A stretch of DNA of 64,000 nt from Cardiobacterium hominis (GTDB lineage: Bacteria > Pseudomonadota > Gammaproteobacteria > Cardiobacteriales > Cardiobacteriaceae), in the NCBI RefSeq assembly GCF_900637305.1, contig NZ_LR134365.1, forward strand, positions 2,224,501 through 2,288,500, read 5' to 3'. This document shows positions 5,962 to 46,343 of this stretch, in pieces. Positions within the stretch are counted from its first letter, which is position 1. Every line of letters begins with the position of its first letter. The notes under the pieces are model-generated. The model saw only the letters and a program-made list of their open reading frames with translations. It did not search any database and had not been told where the DNA came from. The translations under genes and the position numbers were made by a program.

Positions 5962-8208
5962 CTACCTGTCTCGCAAGCTGGAGAACTTGTCGTTATCTAC
6001 CAGCTGTTTGTCCACAATACGCGGCGTGACGAAGATTAGCATTTCGTTCTTCTCAAAGGCGCGTGTATTCTTTTTGAAGGCATTGCCAATAACTGGAATA
6101 TCACCCAAGAGCGGAACTTTTTCTGTCTTGGCAGTTTGTCTTTGTTTATACACACCACCCAAAACAATGGTCTCTCCATTATCCACCAGAACATTGGTTT
6201 TCACCCCACTGGTATTTTTGGTGAATGACGTTTGACCAGCAACAGAAACGTTATTACCCAATTCATCATTGTTAATATTCAGTTCCATATCAACCATGTT
6301 GTTCGGTGCAATACGCGGTGTCACACTTAAGCGCAGCGCAGCAGTAACTGTTTCCAAGGTCGTAGAGCTGCTGCTGGAAGTGCCATTAGTAGAGTTCTCA
6401 TTTCGCGTAACGATAGGCACTTCTACACCAGACCAAATTTCTGCTGGCGCGCCATCTTGCGTTACAACACGTGGGCTGGAAACAATTTCTACGCGTCCTT
6501 CTGTTTGCAGGGCAGACAATTCAAGATCCACCAAGAAATCACCACTCAAGATGGAAAGACCGTAGCTTGCCGGATTTCCAGAAGTACCACCGATAACAGG
6601 CATATTAACACCCAAGCGGTTAGTTAAATCCGGAACAGTTAACGGACGCTCACCATTTACAACACTTTGAGCAAGCACTGATGAAGCAACACTATTACCA
6701 CTACCTGTAACCAGCTTACTGCTAGAACGATTAATGAATGAAACACCGAAGCGAGAACCCAAATCGCGAGCGTAATTGTCTTCTGTCAACACAATACGAG
6801 AATCAATAAGCACCTGTTTAACTGGCTTATCTAGCTCGGCAACCAGATCACGTACTGCCTGAATTTTTTCTGGGATATCATTGACAATCAGAGTATTTGT
6901 TCTTTCATCAACTGAGACAGAGCCCTTTTCAGAAAGAATAGAGTCCACATTAGTAGATAATCCATTTGCTGTCGTAGAACGAACATTATTCTTTGCTTCA
7001 TCAATCAATTTTTTCAGATCGGTAGCACGTGCAAATTGTACTTGAATGCGGTCAATACGCGTCGGAGTCAATTGCTTTTTCTCTTCTAATGTACGAAGAA
7101 TAGTCAGTTCAGAAGTTCTTAACTCTTCTAGTGTGGCGACATAAATAACATCACCGCTCTGCCGCTTATCCAGACCCTTCGTTTTCATAATAATATCCAA
7201 GGCCTGATCCCAAGGTACATTATCCAGACGAAGCGTAATATTACCCGTAACACCATCACTAACGACAATATTATTACGTGTAAATTCTGCAATAATTTGC
7301 AATACCGCACGAACCTCAATATCCTGGAAATTTAAAGAAAGGGGTTCACCTTTATAGTGCTTACCGCTGCCAAAACCTAACATTTCTTGTACTTTACGGT
7401 CCTGAGCACTTTGTGCAGGCTTCATAATTTCAATCGTATAAGTATTGCCACTCTGATAGCTGACAAATTCAAAAGGATTTCCTGCCATGTTTAGAGAAAC
7501 CGTAGCTCCACCATTTCCTTTCTTAATTTCAGCATAACTTACTGGCGTATTGTAATCGGTAACATCAAGACGTTTTTGTTCACTATTAGCAATCGTAATA
7601 CCACGAACATCTGCAACTACTTTATTACCATCCTTACGGATATTAACTACCGTATCCGGAGAAGGGAGATTAAAGGTAAAAGCAGCACGACCATTGGAAG
7701 TCCTCTTAAATTCTGGAGAAAGCGCGCCTACGGTATTGACTCCCTTGCCAATCGTTGCCGTACCCTTACCAACATTTACCATCTGTGGATTAACAGCACC
7801 ACGGAATCCTGCTGCAGGCGCAGCCGCTTTTCCAACAGGCGCCTTCATAGCACCTTTTGCGCCCGGCGTCACACTTACAATGACATCTTGCCCCTGCAAA
7901 CTAACATTGTAATTCATCGGTGATGACAGATTAATAACGGCACGTGTGCGTCCCTGTCCCGGAATGACATCAACATTGTAAATGCCATTAGACGCTACAT
8001 CTACACCACGAGATTTCATGGATGATGTCGTATTGGGGAAATCCAGAACAATAGAAGAGTCCGTATTAAAAGCAGCAGGTTTGACACCAGCATTCTTGAA
8101 TACTAATTGATAACCACCAGCTGCACTACCATGTTCTACACCACTGATACTGGCCGCATACAAGCCTGAGGATAACAGCAACAGGCTGCCTGTAATAATG
8201 TGTTTCAT
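5962..8208 (-). CDS. pilQ: Type IV pilus secretin PilQ
   Basis: A 748-residue outer-membrane secretin. A signal peptide (MKHIITGSLLLLSSGLYA) is followed by an AMIN-type region and basic/Ala-rich stretch, the STN/N0 domain (IVVSDGVTGNITLRLDNVPW, about 310-370), secretin N domains, and the conserved C-terminal secretin domain. The hallmark VPLLGDIPVIGNAFKK lies near residue 700, then MLIFVTPRIV. The multimer forms the gate through which the pilus emerges and DNA can enter. It is last of pilM-N-O-P-Q, 24 nt after pilP, followed by a terminator. Its base composition is visibly more AT-rich than the surrounding genes. Confidence 0.95.
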   Translation of the reverse strand: MKHIITGSLLLLSSGLYAASISGVEHGSAAGGYQLVFKNAGVKPAAFNTDSSIVLDFPNTTSSMKSRGVDVASNGIYNVDVIPGQGRTRAVINLSSPMNYNVSLQGQDVIVSVTPGAKGAMKAPVGKAAAPAAGFRGAVNPQMVNVGKGTATIGKGVNTVGALSPEFKRTSNGRAAFTFNLPSPDTVVNIRKDGNKVVADVRGITIANSEQKRLDVTDYNTPVSYAEIKKGNGGATVSLNMAGNPFEFVSYQSGNTYTIEIMKPAQSAQDRKVQEMLGFGSGKHYKGEPLSLNFQDIEVRAVLQIIAEFTRNNIVVSDGVTGNITLRLDNVPWDQALDIIMKTKGLDKRQSGDVIYVATLEELRTSELTILRTLEEKKQLTPTRIDRIQVQFARATDLKKLIDEAKNNVRSTTANGLSTNVDSILSEKGSVSVDERTNTLIVNDIPEKIQAVRDLVAELDKPVKQVLIDSRIVLTEDNYARDLGSRFGVSFINRSSSKLVTGSGNSVASSVLAQSVVNGERPLTVPDLTNRLGVNMPVIGGTSGNPASYGLSILSGDFLVDLELSALQTEGRVEIVSSPRVVTQDGAPAEIWSGVEVPIVTRNENSTNGTSSSSSTTLETVTAALRLSVTPRIAPNNMVDMELNINNDELGNNVSVAGQTSFTKNTSGVKTNVLVDNGETIVLGGVYKQRQTAKTEKVPLLGDIPVIGNAFKKNTRAFEKNEMLIFVTPRIVDKQLVDNDKFSSLRDR

Positions 8209-8232
8209 AATTCCATAACCTCTAATTAAAAA

Positions 8233-8811
8233 TTAATACGTAAAGAGCTCTAAAATAGCCATTCGGTTCTGCCATCCACGCGGAACCCTATATTTTTCAC
8301 GAACCATAACGTGATCAGGTTTGATAGAAATAATCAGACCATTATTTTTACCTATATATTCACCTTGAACCGTATTCACGACTCCAGCATCCGGTGTTTG
8401 AATAAGTGCAGCACGTCTCTGGTTTTTATTCAGAATTGTTCCCACCATCCATAACTGGCTCAAATCATAATTTTCCAAAAAATATTTGGTATGAGGTACT
8501 GGCGCACCATCCCCACAGCTATCATCAGCACAGGCATTCTGACTGGAATCTTCAGGAAGTTTCGCATCCACGACAAAAGACTTTAGTTCAAATGGATCTG
8601 CTTTATCTGCTGTATATACATAAGGTTTGTATTCCTTATTTGCAGGTAACGGCCCAAGATCCAGGTTCGGAGTTGGTTGGGTCGTCCTGGCCGTATTCTC
8701 CATAAACTCAGTAGCCTCCGTCTCAGGATTACTGCCTATAAATCCCATAGAAAGACATGCAACAAATGGTAATATAGCTGCCTTCCGAGGAATGGAATTA
8801 TTTTTCAACAT
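8233..8811 (-). CDS. pilP: Type IV pilus assembly lipoprotein PilP
   Basis: 192 residues. I start at the ATG at 8811 (MLKNNSIPRK) because AAGGAG lies 7 nt upstream; two in-frame ATGs further up are too close to or upstream of that site. The N-terminus has a hydrophobic segment ending FVAC, a plausible lipobox, then a disordered linker and the C-terminal PilP beta-domain (YDLSQLWMVGTI...ALIQTPDAGVV...GEYIGKNNG). PilP connects the PilMNO inner-membrane platform to the PilQ secretin. The coding sequence overlaps the end of pilO by 14 nt. Contains a possible disulphide CADDSC that I cannot place functionally. Confidence 0.9.
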   Translation of the reverse strand: MLKNNSIPRKAAILPFVACLSMGFIGSNPETEATEFMENTARTTQPTPNLDLGPLPANKEYKPYVYTADKADPFELKSFVVDAKLPEDSSQNACADDSCGDGAPVPHTKYFLENYDLSQLWMVGTILNKNQRRAALIQTPDAGVVNTVQGEYIGKNNGLIISIKPDHVMVREKYRVPRGWQNRMAILELFTY

Positions 8812-9454
8812 CGACATTCTCCTTTTTCGCATGTTCCTGCAGAGACTTTAAATCCATTTTTAAGAACTTATCAATATCTTCATTATAGACATAAGTCTGT
8901 AATTGGCTATCTACACTCAGCTTATTAGGATCTTTCTCTGCAATTTTGATGGACATATCCGAAACATTCAAAATACGCTGTAAAGCAGAGATTCTTCCTG
9001 TGAACAACGCAAAATTTGTGTATTTTGTATCTGTCTTTAATTTTATTGGCTTAACATCATAATAATTTTGCTTAATATCTTTCTCTGGCTGAAAAGTATC
9101 AAAAATAATACCATTATCAACACCAGAAATATATACACTATCAATCAGATCAGGCATTTCATCATTAGAAGGAAGATAGTCTAGCAAAGATCTTAATACT
9201 CCTACCAATTCTTCAGAACGCTCTTTATATTTTGGCAAATCTTGTTGGTATTGATACAATTCACTATATTCACTCTTTAGTTGAGTAATCTTCATATTAT
9301 GTGCATCTTGCTGCTCAACCAATGGCTCTCTTACAAATTTATTGTAAAGAAAAGCCGCCACCCCTACGATAACAACCCAACATAAAATTTTGTAGTAAAT
9401 CGGCCAAGTACCAGGATTACTAGTATCTAACTGTCCAGGCGATACAAATTTCAT
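8798..9454 (-). CDS. pilO: Type IV pilus inner-membrane protein PilO
   Basis: 218 residues: short cytoplasmic N-terminus, one transmembrane helix (about residues 22-38, ILCWVVIVGVAAFLYN), a periplasmic coiled coil (about 45-100) and a ferredoxin-like C-terminal domain. It forms a heterodimer with PilN that links PilM to PilP. The start overlaps the pilN stop (ATGA), so translation is coupled. Very AT-rich and lysine/isoleucine-rich compared with its genomic neighbours, as are pilP and pilQ. Confidence 0.92.
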   Translation of the reverse strand: MKFVSPGQLDTSNPGTWPIYYKILCWVVIVGVAAFLYNKFVREPLVEQQDAHNMKITQLKSEYSELYQYQQDLPKYKERSEELVGVLRSLLDYLPSNDEMPDLIDSVYISGVDNGIIFDTFQPEKDIKQNYYDVKPIKLKTDTKYTNFALFTGRISALQRILNVSDMSIKIAEKDPNKLSVDSQLQTYVYNEDIDKFLKMDLKSLQEHAKKENVDVEK

Positions 9455-10041
9455 TTTTGTCCTCCTTCAGAATTGGGGTCACGCTTTACCTCCATATTGA
9501 TAGTAAATTCCTTAACTTCACTACCTTCTGGAACTTTAAAACTATTATTCCCTTTCGCTGCCGTGATACTATCCACGGATGCCGTTGAAAAATACTGGAA
9601 TCTTTCCATATTTCGCATAAACTGTGCTACACCGCTATCATTACTAGCAACGCCCGTAATGATGACTTTCCCCGATTTATAATCGATAGAACTTAAAAAT
9701 ACGGTTTCCGGCGTATTCTGCGCAATGTAGTCAAGCATTTCTGTGGCCAAACCGCGCTCGGCTTGAAGTTTTTGGATAACTTCAATTTGTAGATTGACCT
9801 GTTTATTGAGCTCTTTTAATCGGTCAACTTCCTGTTTGGCAACAGATAGCTTGGCTTTACCAGCTTCCAAGTTACTGATTGCCGCTTCTTGTTGCTCAAT
9901 ATAACGGTTTTGCAGCCAATAATCAGCGCCCAAGGCTGCCGCACACAGGAGCACAATGCCTACTGTTGCGTAAGCAAAACCCTTTTTCTGCTCTTCGCGG
10001 CGTTGTTCGCGCCACGGTTGTAGGTTAAATTTTCTAGCCAT
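9451..10041 (-). CDS. pilN: Type IV pilus inner-membrane protein PilN
   Basis: 196 residues. The N-terminal motif FNLQPWREQRREEQKK is the PilN segment that inserts into PilM. A transmembrane helix follows (about 22-42), then a coiled coil rich in Glu/Lys and a small alpha/beta domain. Start overlaps the pilM stop by one base (TAATG); the stop overlaps pilO by 4 nt. Part of the pilus assembly platform in the inner membrane. Confidence 0.94.
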   Translation of the reverse strand: MARKFNLQPWREQRREEQKKGFAYATVGIVLLCAAALGADYWLQNRYIEQQEAAISNLEAGKAKLSVAKQEVDRLKELNKQVNLQIEVIQKLQAERGLATEMLDYIAQNTPETVFLSSIDYKSGKVIITGVASNDSGVAQFMRNMERFQYFSTASVDSITAAKGNNSFKVPEGSEVKEFTINMEVKRDPNSEGGQK

Positions 10042-11078
10042 TAGTTTGTGCCTTCCATCGCCAAGCCTATTGCCAAGGCATGATTGATTCCAGACTGCAA
10101 CGCGTCATCAGAGCGCTGAGATCCTGACAATTTGATGTAAGGAGCGAGATTCAGCAATCTGATATTGTGAGATACGTTTGCAGCACCCAATGCATCTACA
10201 AAGCCACTGAGTCGTGCGCCACCGCCAGTCAGGTAAATGACTTTGATCGGTTCAGGATTTTCGGTGACGTTGTTGGCTTCATAGAAATCCAGCGCCAGAT
10301 GCAGCTGTTCGGTGAATGTTTGTACGTAAGGCGTCAGTACCAAGTCTTTATATTCGTCGCCAAAGCTGTGACCAATCTTGCGGTTTTCGGCGGATTCGGC
10401 GTCAATGTCAAAGACGTCCATAATAATTTCATTTACGGTATTGCCGCCAATTTGTTGCTCACGGCTAAACAGTAGTTCGCTGCCTTTGCAAACGTAGAAG
10501 CGGCTACGGCTGAAGCCGATATCAATCAGCATGATGCGATCATTCTTGCCGACGTCGCTCTTGCTGACGTATTTCAGTACGCGTGTGAACGCAAAGGCAT
10601 CCACATCTACTTGTGGTTTGCTGAAAGTCTTGGGCAGATTGTTCAGCAATGCGGTTTTTTCATCCGCAACATCGCGGCGCACGACAACTGCCAAGCGCGT
10701 TCCTTTTTTGCTGGGTACTTCGTCGAAATCGAAATAGACTTGATCCATGCCGAACGGTATGGCGTCATTCAGTTCGAGTTCTATTGCGCCTTCCAGTTCG
10801 TTACCGCGCAAAGAAGCATCTACGTTGACTTCACGCATGATGACGTCGCCGGTATTGACGTGCAAGACGACCTGCCCTTTGTTCACTTTCTGTTTTTTCA
10901 GGGTGGCGGCAACGATTTTGCTCAAGGTTACGCGATCGCGCTGCAGGCGGACTTCCGGCGGAATCACTTCGTAAGCGAGGTGGTTCGCTGTAAAGGCTTT
11001 GCCTGATTGCTTGATCTGGGCGACCTTGATGCTGTATTGCCCAATATCTACCCCGATAATCTCAGGTTTTCCCAACAT
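10041..11078 (-). CDS. pilM: Type IV pilus actin-like ATPase PilM
   Basis: 345 residues, actin/FtsA-like fold. Phosphate-1 region is IIGVDIGQYSIKVAQI (about 7-22), phosphate-2 MLIDIGFSRSRFYV (about 184-197) and the adenosine motif YLTGGGARLSGF (about 280-291). A cytoplasmic protein that docks on the PilN N-terminus. AAGGAG lies 8 nt before the ATG. First gene of pilMNOPQ; in many gammaproteobacteria pilM is divergent from a penicillin-binding protein gene, but here it follows rseP on the same strand. Confidence 0.95.
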   Translation of the reverse strand: MLGKPEIIGVDIGQYSIKVAQIKQSGKAFTANHLAYEVIPPEVRLQRDRVTLSKIVAATLKKQKVNKGQVVLHVNTGDVIMREVNVDASLRGNELEGAIELELNDAIPFGMDQVYFDFDEVPSKKGTRLAVVVRRDVADEKTALLNNLPKTFSKPQVDVDAFAFTRVLKYVSKSDVGKNDRIMLIDIGFSRSRFYVCKGSELLFSREQQIGGNTVNEIIMDVFDIDAESAENRKIGHSFGDEYKDLVLTPYVQTFTEQLHLALDFYEANNVTENPEPIKVIYLTGGGARLSGFVDALGAANVSHNIRLLNLAPYIKLSGSQRSDDALQSGINHALAIGLAMEGTN

Positions 11079-43815: not shown

Positions 43816-44349
43816 ATGAGCCACAAAGCCCCCAAACCTTTCTACCCGCTGAACATCGCCATCCTCACCGTCTCCGACACCCGCACGCTCGCTGAAGACA
43901 CCTCCGGCCAATACCTCGAAGACGCCGTGCGCGCCGCCGGACACCACCTCGCCGCGCGCACCCTGCTCACCGACGACAAATACCACATCCGCGCGCAAGT
44001 CGCCGCCTGGATAGCAGATACCAACATCCAAGTCGTGCTGATTACCGGCGGCACCGGCTTCTATGGCCGCGACAACACCCCGGAAGCCGTCGCCGTCCTC
44101 TTTGACAAAACCATCGACGGCTTCGGCGAAGCCTTCCGCGCCGCTTCCATCGCCGACATCGGCATGAGCACCCTGCAATCCCGCGCCCTCGCCGGCATGG
44201 CAAACCGCACCGCCGTCTTCTGCATGCCCGGCTCAACCGGCGCCTGTAAAACCGCCTGGGAATACGTCCTGAAAGACCAGCTCGACTCCCGCACCCGCCC
44301 GTGCAACTTCTATCCGCATCTGACGCGCAGCGATGACAATCAATTATGA
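43816..44349 (+). CDS. moaB: Molybdopterin adenylyltransferase-type protein MoaB
   Basis: 177 residues. MogA/MoaB fold: IAILTVSDTRTLAEDTSGQYL (about 14-34) and LITGGTGFYGRDNTPEA (about 74-90), with the C-terminal AVFCMPGSTGACKTAWEYV. Homologues adenylate molybdopterin before MoeA; E. coli MoaB is itself poorly active, so function here is inferred. Its end overlaps the AT-rich gene that follows if that gene uses its first ATG (44333). Confidence 0.92.
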   Translation: MSHKAPKPFYPLNIAILTVSDTRTLAEDTSGQYLEDAVRAAGHHLAARTLLTDDKYHIRAQVAAWIADTNIQVVLITGGTGFYGRDNTPEAVAVLFDKTIDGFGEAFRAASIADIGMSTLQSRALAGMANRTAVFCMPGSTGACKTAWEYVLKDQLDSRTRPCNFYPHLTRSDDNQL

Positions 44350-44368
44350 ACTTACATTTGGAGCGCTA

Positions 44369-45763
44369 ATGAAAGAAAAAAAACGAATAGTCTCTTTATT
44401 GAGCATATTTATTATTTTATTATTTTGCTTAATATTTAAATACAATCTAATATTTGATGAATGCAATCGCATATGGAATTGGATTTTATTGCCTATTATT
44501 TTGCTTGTTACTCTAATAATTTTTAATTCTCACAACAAAATTAGACCCGTTATTATATTATTAACATCAGGCCTAACAATATTAACTCTATATTTAATAG
44601 TAAAATATGGATTCCCACAATTTATAGAGACCAATGTAGAAAAAATTATAGGAGCAAACGGGATATGGACTTTTATGGCATTAATAGTTTCCGCCCCTAC
44701 TGCATTTGCTATATGGCATTTTAGAGATTCTAATAATATTCAGCAGATAGAAAATGATAGAAAAGATGTAAATTTAAAAGAATTTCAGAAAATTGTAGAA
44801 TGGGTTGGAAATATAGACTCTAATACTGACACATCTTCTCCTTTGATTGTTTCTTCTGTTTATAACTTACTTCCATTTCTCCGAGGCGATAGAGGAGAAG
44901 ATTTTATTAGTCCTGCCTTAAACTTGTTGATTTCTGCTTGGTACAAATTACAAGAAAAAAATATTCGGGCAGTGCGAAATCTAAAATTTGATAGTCATTA
45001 TTTTCCTTTAAAAACAGACCATGGAAACTCACTTGAAGAACTATATGATTTACTAAATAATATTAAAAGCACTAGAGATACCTTTCTAGCCAAAGCAATA
45101 ACGAAGGTTTTGCTATCAGATGGTGGTGATAATTTAAAAAGAGACCCTAAGATATTTAATAGTTTATGTCTTATTGGAATGGATTTTAATCTGTATGGCT
45201 TAGAACATAATAAACTAAAGAATCTATTTGTAAATATAGAAGGAAATTTAGATAACCTAGAGTTACAGGGATGCAACTTAGATAAATTTAATTTCCGTGG
45301 CTCAGAGTTAAGACGAGTTTATTTATTAGGCGCTTCATTAAGGGAAGCTATTTTTCAAGATTGTTCAATATTCTTAGATAACCTAATTGGAGCAGATATA
45401 TCTGGATCAAATTTGATTGACACAACATTTGATCAAGTGATTTTAGGTAAACCATGTACACTTGATCCCCCTAATGATAGGTGGCAAGTAATATGCTATG
45501 GAGCATTTATGCTTCATGAAAATTATAACGAAGATAAGTTTTCTTTAGATATGGAAGATATGAAAGGTAGCGGCATTATTTTCCTTAATGCAAAAAGGCA
45601 ATGGATTCCTAAAAAACACAAAATATATATTGCAAGAAATGTGGGTTCTATCGAAAGATATAGCAATACCTTACAAAGATATACTGTAAACAATAAACTC
45701 ACTAATGAAAATAATGCTTGTTGGGAAGTAAACCCTAATTGGTGGACACCATACGATGACTGA
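44369..45763 (+). CDS. AT-rich pentapeptide-repeat membrane protein inside the moa operon
   Basis: 464 residues from the ATG at 44369 (GGAG 5 nt upstream); an in-frame ATG at 44333 would overlap moaB. Four transmembrane helices (about 5-27, 36-53, 60-83, 95-116) are followed by WHFRDSNNIQQIENDRKDVN and KEFQKIVEW, a juxtamembrane motif I associate with membrane-bound pentapeptide proteins. Then a helical region and about 13 pentapeptides (NLDNL, ELQGC, NLDKF, NFRGS, ... NLIGA, DISGS, NLIDT; about 292-357) and a C-terminal tail. Roughly 30% GC by eye against about 60% around it: acquired by transfer. It overlaps mobA by 8 nt. Not a Mo-cofactor enzyme; role unknown, possibly defence or stress sensing. 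Confidence 0.85.
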   Translation: MKEKKRIVSLLSIFIILLFCLIFKYNLIFDECNRIWNWILLPIILLVTLIIFNSHNKIRPVIILLTSGLTILTLYLIVKYGFPQFIETNVEKIIGANGIWTFMALIVSAPTAFAIWHFRDSNNIQQIENDRKDVNLKEFQKIVEWVGNIDSNTDTSSPLIVSSVYNLLPFLRGDRGEDFISPALNLLISAWYKLQEKNIRAVRNLKFDSHYFPLKTDHGNSLEELYDLLNNIKSTRDTFLAKAITKVLLSDGGDNLKRDPKIFNSLCLIGMDFNLYGLEHNKLKNLFVNIEGNLDNLELQGCNLDKFNFRGSELRRVYLLGASLREAIFQDCSIFLDNLIGADISGSNLIDTTFDQVILGKPCTLDPPNDRWQVICYGAFMLHENYNEDKFSLDMEDMKGSGIIFLNAKRQWIPKKHKIYIARNVGSIERYSNTLQRYTVNNKLTNENNACWEVNPNWWTPYDD

Positions 45764-46343
45764 CACCCTCACCCTCCTCTGCGGCGGGCAGTCGCAGCGC
45801 ATGGGGCGCGACAAAGCCCTGCTCGAATACCACGGCGAAACCCTGCTTGCCCGCCATCTGCGCCTTGCCGACGCGGCAGGCATGTGCGTTTACCTTGCCA
45901 GCGGCGGCACCGCTTACCCGCATCCGCCCGCGGTGCAGACGGTCGCCGATGCGCTACCTGAACGTGCCGGGCCGCTATCGGCGCTCGCGGGCGCGCTTAC
46001 CGCGATTGCAGCGGCAGGCGGCACGGAAACGCTGCTGTTGCCGGTCGATACCTTGGTCACACCCACGATGCTGCGCGATGCGCTCGCCGGCGCGCCGCCC
46101 GCGCCGTTCGTCTGCATCGTGCAGGATGGCCAACCGCAGCCGCTTTTCGCCCGTGTATCTACCACGCTGTTGCCGCGCCTGCACGAATGGCTCGAAAGCG
46201 GTCTGCGCCGCATGATGCCGCTTGCCGCGCTATCCGGCGTGCGCTACGTCGTCATGCCTGCCGACTGGCCGCAGCCCATCAACTTCAACACCCTCGAAGA
46301 CTGGCAAACCTTGGAGAACAGCGATGCCCTTCACCCATCTTGA
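45756..46343 (+). CDS. mobA: Molybdenum cofactor guanylyltransferase MobA
   Basis: 195 residues. Nucleotide-binding LLCGGQSQRMGRDKALLEY (about 8-26; the family usually has LAGG, so C replaces A), AGPLSALAGAL and the PVDT metal-binding motif. Attaches GMP to Moco to form MGD, needed by TorA-type enzymes. Its start lies inside the 3' end of the pentapeptide gene, so its ribosome site is encoded by foreign DNA (GGTGG upstream). It overlaps moaC by 20 nt. Confidence 0.9.
   Translation: MTDTLTLLCGGQSQRMGRDKALLEYHGETLLARHLRLADAAGMCVYLASGGTAYPHPPAVQTVADALPERAGPLSALAGALTAIAAAGGTETLLLPVDTLVTPTMLRDALAGAPPAPFVCIVQDGQPQPLFARVSTTLLPRLHEWLESGLRRMMPLAALSGVRYVVMPADWPQPINFNTLEDWQTLENSDALHPS

Follow-up and report, generated by a model that had tools for sequence, protein, structure and literature searches.

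Why does a strongly AT-rich membrane-protein gene stand between moaB and mobA in the molybdenum-cofactor operon of Cardiobacterium hominis, and does it serve that operon? We analysed the locus in its window, that is, the whole 64,000-nucleotide stretch of DNA of which it forms part (Table 1). As the preliminary description had stated, a 464-residue gene of about 30% GC lies between the two operon genes. Specifically, the inserted gene has a GC content of 0.299 and a GC3 of 0.215, against 0.629 and 0.803 for moaB, 0.668 and 0.770 for mobA and 0.669 and 0.817 for moeA (flanks 63–67% GC), and the composition profile shows a GC dip with sharp edges at this gene. The 8-nt overlap with mobA was likewise found as described, with the sequence ATGACTGA. 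On the other side, 19 nt separate the moaB stop from the start at 44369; an alternative in-frame ATG upstream, at 44333, would overlap moaB. No promoter-like site was found in the gap between moaB and the open reading frame, so the inserted gene presumably depends on transcription of the operon. The genome holds it in a single copy. A random frame of 464 codons is implausible at 30% GC and the homologues are under purifying selection, which together argue that the gene is of a real, functional type. Its low GC alone does not prove foreign origin, since the native pilO is nearly as AT-rich. This pilus core gene (8798–9454, 32.7% GC) lies in the same window, in the type IV pilus cluster pilM-pilN-pilO-pilP-pilQ (5962–11078, minus strand), which is unusually low in GC for a window of 58% GC.

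Table 1. Features of the moaB-mobA region and of the inserted gene (window coordinates).
Feature	Position	Strand	Remark or basis
moaB (MoCF_biosynth)	43816..44349	+	Pfam
7-bp direct repeat CGATGAC, left copy	44331..44337	+	at composition boundary
GGAG, ribosome-binding-site-like, for inserted gene	44360..44363	+	sequence
Inserted membrane pentapeptide-repeat gene	44369..45763	+	464 aa, frame open throughout; Pfam
Transmembrane region, residues 2–118, four helices	44372..44722	+	AlphaFold2
Conserved juxtamembrane helix, residues 116–147, W.FRD.N....E..RKD.NLKEFQ...W	44714..44809	+	alignment, AlphaFold2
Helical domain, residues 158–265, family-conserved	44840..45163	+	without Pfam or PDB match
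Pentapeptide-repeat beta-helix, residues 266–360	45164..45448	+	Pfam, AlphaFold2, fold matches
C-terminal tail, residues 361–464, no confident structure	45449..45760	+	AlphaFold2
7-bp direct repeat CGATGAC, right copy	45754..45760	+	includes mobA start codon
mobA (NTP_transf_3)	45756..46343	+	Pfam; shares 8 nt with inserted gene

The composition changes at 44332 and 45740, beside the two CGATGAC copies. A comparable 7-mer repeat equally near both boundaries occurs in 3% of shuffles, so the repeat is suggestive as an insertion mark but no proof, and chance may account for it. In-silico removal of one CGATGAC copy and the intervening sequence takes out 1423 bp; moaB would then end in ...HLTRSDD*, its predicted original end, and would again overlap mobA by the 8-nt ATGACTGA. 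The empty junction predicted by this reconstruction with the 7-bp repeat reads ...CGCAGCGATGACTGACACC. At the level of sequence, the end of the inserted gene looks like the last codons of moaB itself, and it is suggestive that the present moaB stop and its last three codons, NQL, may derive from the inserted side. In all three family-level relatives compared (G011, G008 and G010, with MoaB identities to the window of 86%, 84% and 76%, respectively), moaB is followed by mobA after a short gap, with neither the insert nor an alternative cassette between them. Neither moaB nor mobA was found in two congeneric genomes of 86–89% completeness, which makes it doubtful that this is an operon the cell needs, as had been assumed. 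No tRNA was found in the window, and we therefore rejected tRNA-associated integration. A search of the window for uptake sequences returned mostly GC-rich 9-mers and nothing like any known uptake sequence.

We next consider the predicted protein. AlphaFold2, run on a 27-sequence alignment, gave a model with a mean pLDDT of 68 and helices at residues 2–28, 30–52, 56–81 and 97–147, in agreement with the four transmembrane helices and the WHFRD...KDVNLKEFQ juxtamembrane motif proposed earlier. In the model, the fourth transmembrane helix continues unbroken (97–147) through the WHFRD...RKDVNLKEFQ motif, and the helical domain that follows has pLDDT values mostly above 85. Judged by charge, with KEKKR before the first transmembrane helix and RKD..K after the fourth, both termini should be cytoplasmic. 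The pentapeptide repeats are present as predicted (PF00805, 38.3 bits against a cut-off of 20.2, E 9e-10), but the earlier count of about 13 was too low: the stretch comprises about 19 five-residue units, many of them degenerate. Residues 266–360 of the model form a right-handed quadrilateral beta-helix, whose best Foldseek match, local only, is Rfr23 (E 3e-4). The beta-helix is the only part that finds structural matches among PDB and viral models, and its repeats are the only part recognised by curated libraries; the core fold had no match in the PDB with E below 0.7, and no family in Pfam, NCBIfam or PADLOC covers the core region.

The core nevertheless defines a family. A scan of genome contigs with the window protein as single query gave no match, and the wider family was recovered by a profile built from the core alignment. 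Its members commonly share a transmembrane segment, the W.FRD.N....E..RKD.NLKEFQ...W motif, the helical domain and the repeats; the window protein has four transmembrane helices, as against two in most relatives. Eleven residues (W116, R119, D120, N122, R131, K132, D133, N135, L136, K137 and W145) are invariant in all 27 aligned members, the window protein included. At three near-invariant positions it departs from the others (G148N, Q160I, A163S); these positions played no part in defining the family, to which the window protein belongs by profile, as an outlier. These departures and a long branch in the tree indicate that its function may have drifted. By profile search, family members occur in 10 of 83 genomes of the Neisseriaceae (the family of Neisseria sicca), 9 of 140 of the Pasteurellaceae (the family of Aggregatibacter kilianii) and 6 of 83 of family f113, with the repeat-only matches G485 and G503 left out of the counts. 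Additionally, two further Cardiobacteriaceae genomes carry a member, and distant members were found in a Chloroherpetonaceae MAG, a Comamonadaceae MAG and Pseudoduganella. When 399 evenly sampled Pseudomonadota genomes were searched, the window's own genome gave a match and the other 398 gave none, which shows how rare and scattered the family is. A distant relationship between the core and another membrane pentapeptide protein, in L042, was rejected (2% probability), the resemblance being a merely local W..R. The pentapeptide-repeat superfamily is known; the subfamily is previously unnamed, and its genomic behaviour is unusual.

This behaviour is seen in the landing sites. We read 30 loci, at about 22 different sites; since orthologous sites recur, the 30 loci are not independent data points. 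The neighbours were named in part by Pfam scan and otherwise by our own reading of the sequences. The upstream gene is pntB at four loci, polA at three and thrC at three, and elsewhere hypE, prfC, hrpA, nrdA, an asparaginase, purC and others; in f113 there is a yidC-tauD / ampD-kdsC site. By our reading, 28 of the 30 copies point the same way as the gene that precedes them. A higher AT content than in the flanking sequence was measured for 29 of 30, with a mean difference of 11.5 points. None of the loci read, apart from that of the window, has molybdenum-cofactor genes beside the family copy; the nearest parallel is hypE, in the hydrogenase-maturation operon of Aggregatibacter kilianii. The window copy has its top identity with an A. 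kilianii copy (50% over the core). In the maximum-likelihood core tree, a copy behind nrdA in G011, a member of the Cardiobacteriaceae, nests within a Neisseria clade with 100/100 support next to copies behind polA, which indicates both transfer between families and a change of site. With the relatives' junctions empty, homologues at other sites and cross-family transfer of another copy, the suggestion that an acquired gene entered the translational chain of the operon is supported.

In two Neisseria species, stretches of 1.6 kb that are 95% identical stand at different loci, each amid dispersed repeats, which suggests repeat-mediated movement in these species. At two Neisseria loci (L053, 5029–7653, and L093, 4915–8123), the gene is flanked on both sides by recurring dispersed repeats of 100–350 bp. 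Other AT-rich unknown genes lie upstream of pntB (L092, 9190–10370, and L093, 9642–10550, both on the minus strand), and the pntB neighbourhood seems to be a general landing spot in Neisseria. As for mobile carriers, a tblastn search with the window protein against phage and plasmid record collections gave no match, and a first scan of viral contigs found no homologue. In a second viral-contig scan one homologue came up (L114, 781–5140). It lies on the far side of a tyrosine integrase located next to P2-like tail genes, and could be either cargo of the prophage or host sequence outside it. The genome encodes a ComEC-family gene and the window holds pilM-pilQ, and natural transformation is a plausible route. 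That this solitary, operon-hitchhiking gene moves laterally is well supported.

To see which parts of the protein are constrained, we calculated pairwise dN/dS for six homologue pairs. The ratio is about 0.01–0.1 in the juxtamembrane motif, reaches about 0.2 in the helical domain and is about 0.5–0.6 in the pentapeptide region of four of the six pairs. Between the copies of L092 and L094 at the pntB site, the transmembrane region has been replaced (dN 0.78), with a dN of 0.04–0.05 in the core. Purifying selection acts very strongly on the juxtamembrane core, while the transmembrane segment and the repeats diverge or are swapped. Since the ratio is below 1 in the repeats, their variation may reflect relaxed constraint rather than diversifying selection. 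Some copies have decayed: those of G563 and G002 are frameshifted and that of G569 is truncated. The thrC site harbours two damaged copies, one in a Pasteurellaceae genome (L106, 6000–6500) cut to 112 codons directly after NLKEFQKL, the other, in G563, longer but frameshifted. Phase variation was rejected, the frameshift sites of the decayed copies having no consistent simple repeats.

Site variability, AT-richness, one cross-family nesting and the decayed copies all point to a solitary accessory gene that is mobile and easily lost. Our leading explanation, held with a confidence a little short of even, is that the window gene is a laterally acquired, solitary membrane pentapeptide protein of a scattered family, with an accessory role, for which the molybdenum operon is a landing site only. 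Copies would insert right behind a housekeeping gene in the same direction and would probably be expressed by read-through; here the operon would merely supply landing site and promoter. Spread among mouth bacteria could proceed by natural transformation together with illegitimate or repeat-mediated recombination. With both termini facing the cytoplasm, the rigid helix that extends from the final transmembrane segment through RKD.NLKEFQ and the helical domain may act as a constant coupling or oligomerisation module, and the variable beta-helix and tail may bind a target at the inner membrane face, so that the target is sequestered or a membrane response triggered.

What such a protein would act on can be weighed from the same evidence. 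A possible though somewhat unlikely answer is single-gene defence against phages or plasmids, in which the cytoplasmic repeats would sense a component of the invader and the membrane part would bring about growth arrest or leakage. The sporadic distribution of a solitary gene with decayed copies, and with two copies in some genomes, fits this idea, as do a core that is strongly conserved between ends that evolve fast or are exchanged, the homologue near a prophage integrase and the candidate defence genes by two or three copies. These defence-type neighbours, each near a single copy, are a PDC-S01-type ATPase, an MkoB-like gene and a methyltransferase; the MkoB-like candidate (L095, 11000–12379, minus strand) lies a few genes from a Neisseriaceae copy. 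However, the neighbourhoods are mostly housekeeping, with few defence genes and no defence islands, phage and plasmid records hold no match, and no PADLOC-DB model matches the window protein. A match to PD-Lambda-5_A was dismissed because it concerns only one other family member, within its repeat region. We regard it as unlikely that the protein constitutively scaffolds the membrane or serves in envelope stress, with envelope assembly or transport as its target. Such a protein would account for the very strong purifying selection that the core is under and for the arrangement of four N-terminal transmembrane helices and C-terminal pentapeptide repeats described for HglK (PMC8145042); a sparse, site-hopping and easily lost distribution ill suits such a role, and most relatives have only two transmembrane helices.

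Two further readings fare worse. It is highly improbable that the gene encodes, as cargo, a topoisomerase protector of the Qnr/MfpA/AlbG type: the beta-helix does match QnrB1, MfpA and AlbG in sequence and fold, but less well than it matches generic pentapeptide proteins, and the membrane anchor, the core domain and the short degenerate repeats set it apart from known protectors. Against the curated protector model for MfpA, the protein scores 13 bits, the cut-off being 360. That the gene regulates molybdenum-dependent respiration and has kept its place in the operon on that account is barely credible. Its position inside the operon and the overlap with mobA speak for it, but the homologues lie behind unrelated genes and the molybdenum operons of relatives lack the insert. 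The link to this respiration raised in the preliminary description thus finds no parallel at any other homologous locus read, and the strict association with molybdenum-cofactor genes across distant genomes that it had named as evidence against recent insertion was not found; the locus survey led us to reject a connection with molybdenum biology.

Returning to the accessory protein of a scattered family, we favour a membrane-docked recognition or scaffold protein with an accessory role in conflict or envelope stress, and consider conflict with phages or rival bacteria slightly likelier than constitutive envelope scaffolding. In its most specific form, which is speculative and rather unlikely as a whole, this would be a polymorphic conflict system of mouth bacteria, made up of a single gene that hops between loci, with a near-invariant membrane-coupling core, an exchangeable transmembrane segment and fast-diverging recognition repeats, whose copies would spread by landing behind housekeeping genes and borrow their transcription. 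Should the gene prove to act in conflict or stress, it would be an example of accessory genes moving one at a time and relying on host operons for a promoter; searches for defence islands would overlook such singletons. Membrane pentapeptide-repeat proteins are common, and to our knowledge almost none has an established biochemical function. The family offers an entry point, given its tiny near-invariant juxtamembrane core, its natural swaps of transmembrane segment and repeats, and the way it has come to rest behind housekeeping genes time and again in three families, mouth bacteria among them.

Among known systems, the minimal mobile elements of Neisseria, as defined in PMC3082526 (citing Snyder et al. 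2007; Saunders and Snyder 2002), resemble this gene as whole-gene cassettes between conserved housekeeping genes of naturally transformable bacteria. The definition as worded there includes alternative cassettes between the same two genes, whereas moaB and mobA of the relatives enclose no cassette. It also covers entry into the chromosome through homologous recombination in the flanking genes. The PF00805 proteins HetL, NP275, Rfr23, QnrB1, MfpA and AlbG match the beta-helix in sequence and predicted fold; they differ in being soluble, without a transmembrane region and without the W.FRD.N..RKD.NLKEFQ core. HglK of Nostoc/Anabaena, compared by layout and description only, has four transmembrane helices at its N-terminus and a C-terminal pentapeptide domain at the cytoplasmic membrane, but it carries 36 repeats, functions in heterocyst glycolipids and septal junctions, and comes from an unrelated organism. 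The homologues behind pntB, polA, thrC, hypE and nrdA in Neisseria, Pasteurellaceae and Cardiobacteriaceae stand at other sites, usually with two transmembrane helices, often a longer repeat domain and a milder contrast in composition, yet they share both the architecture and the core motif of the window gene.
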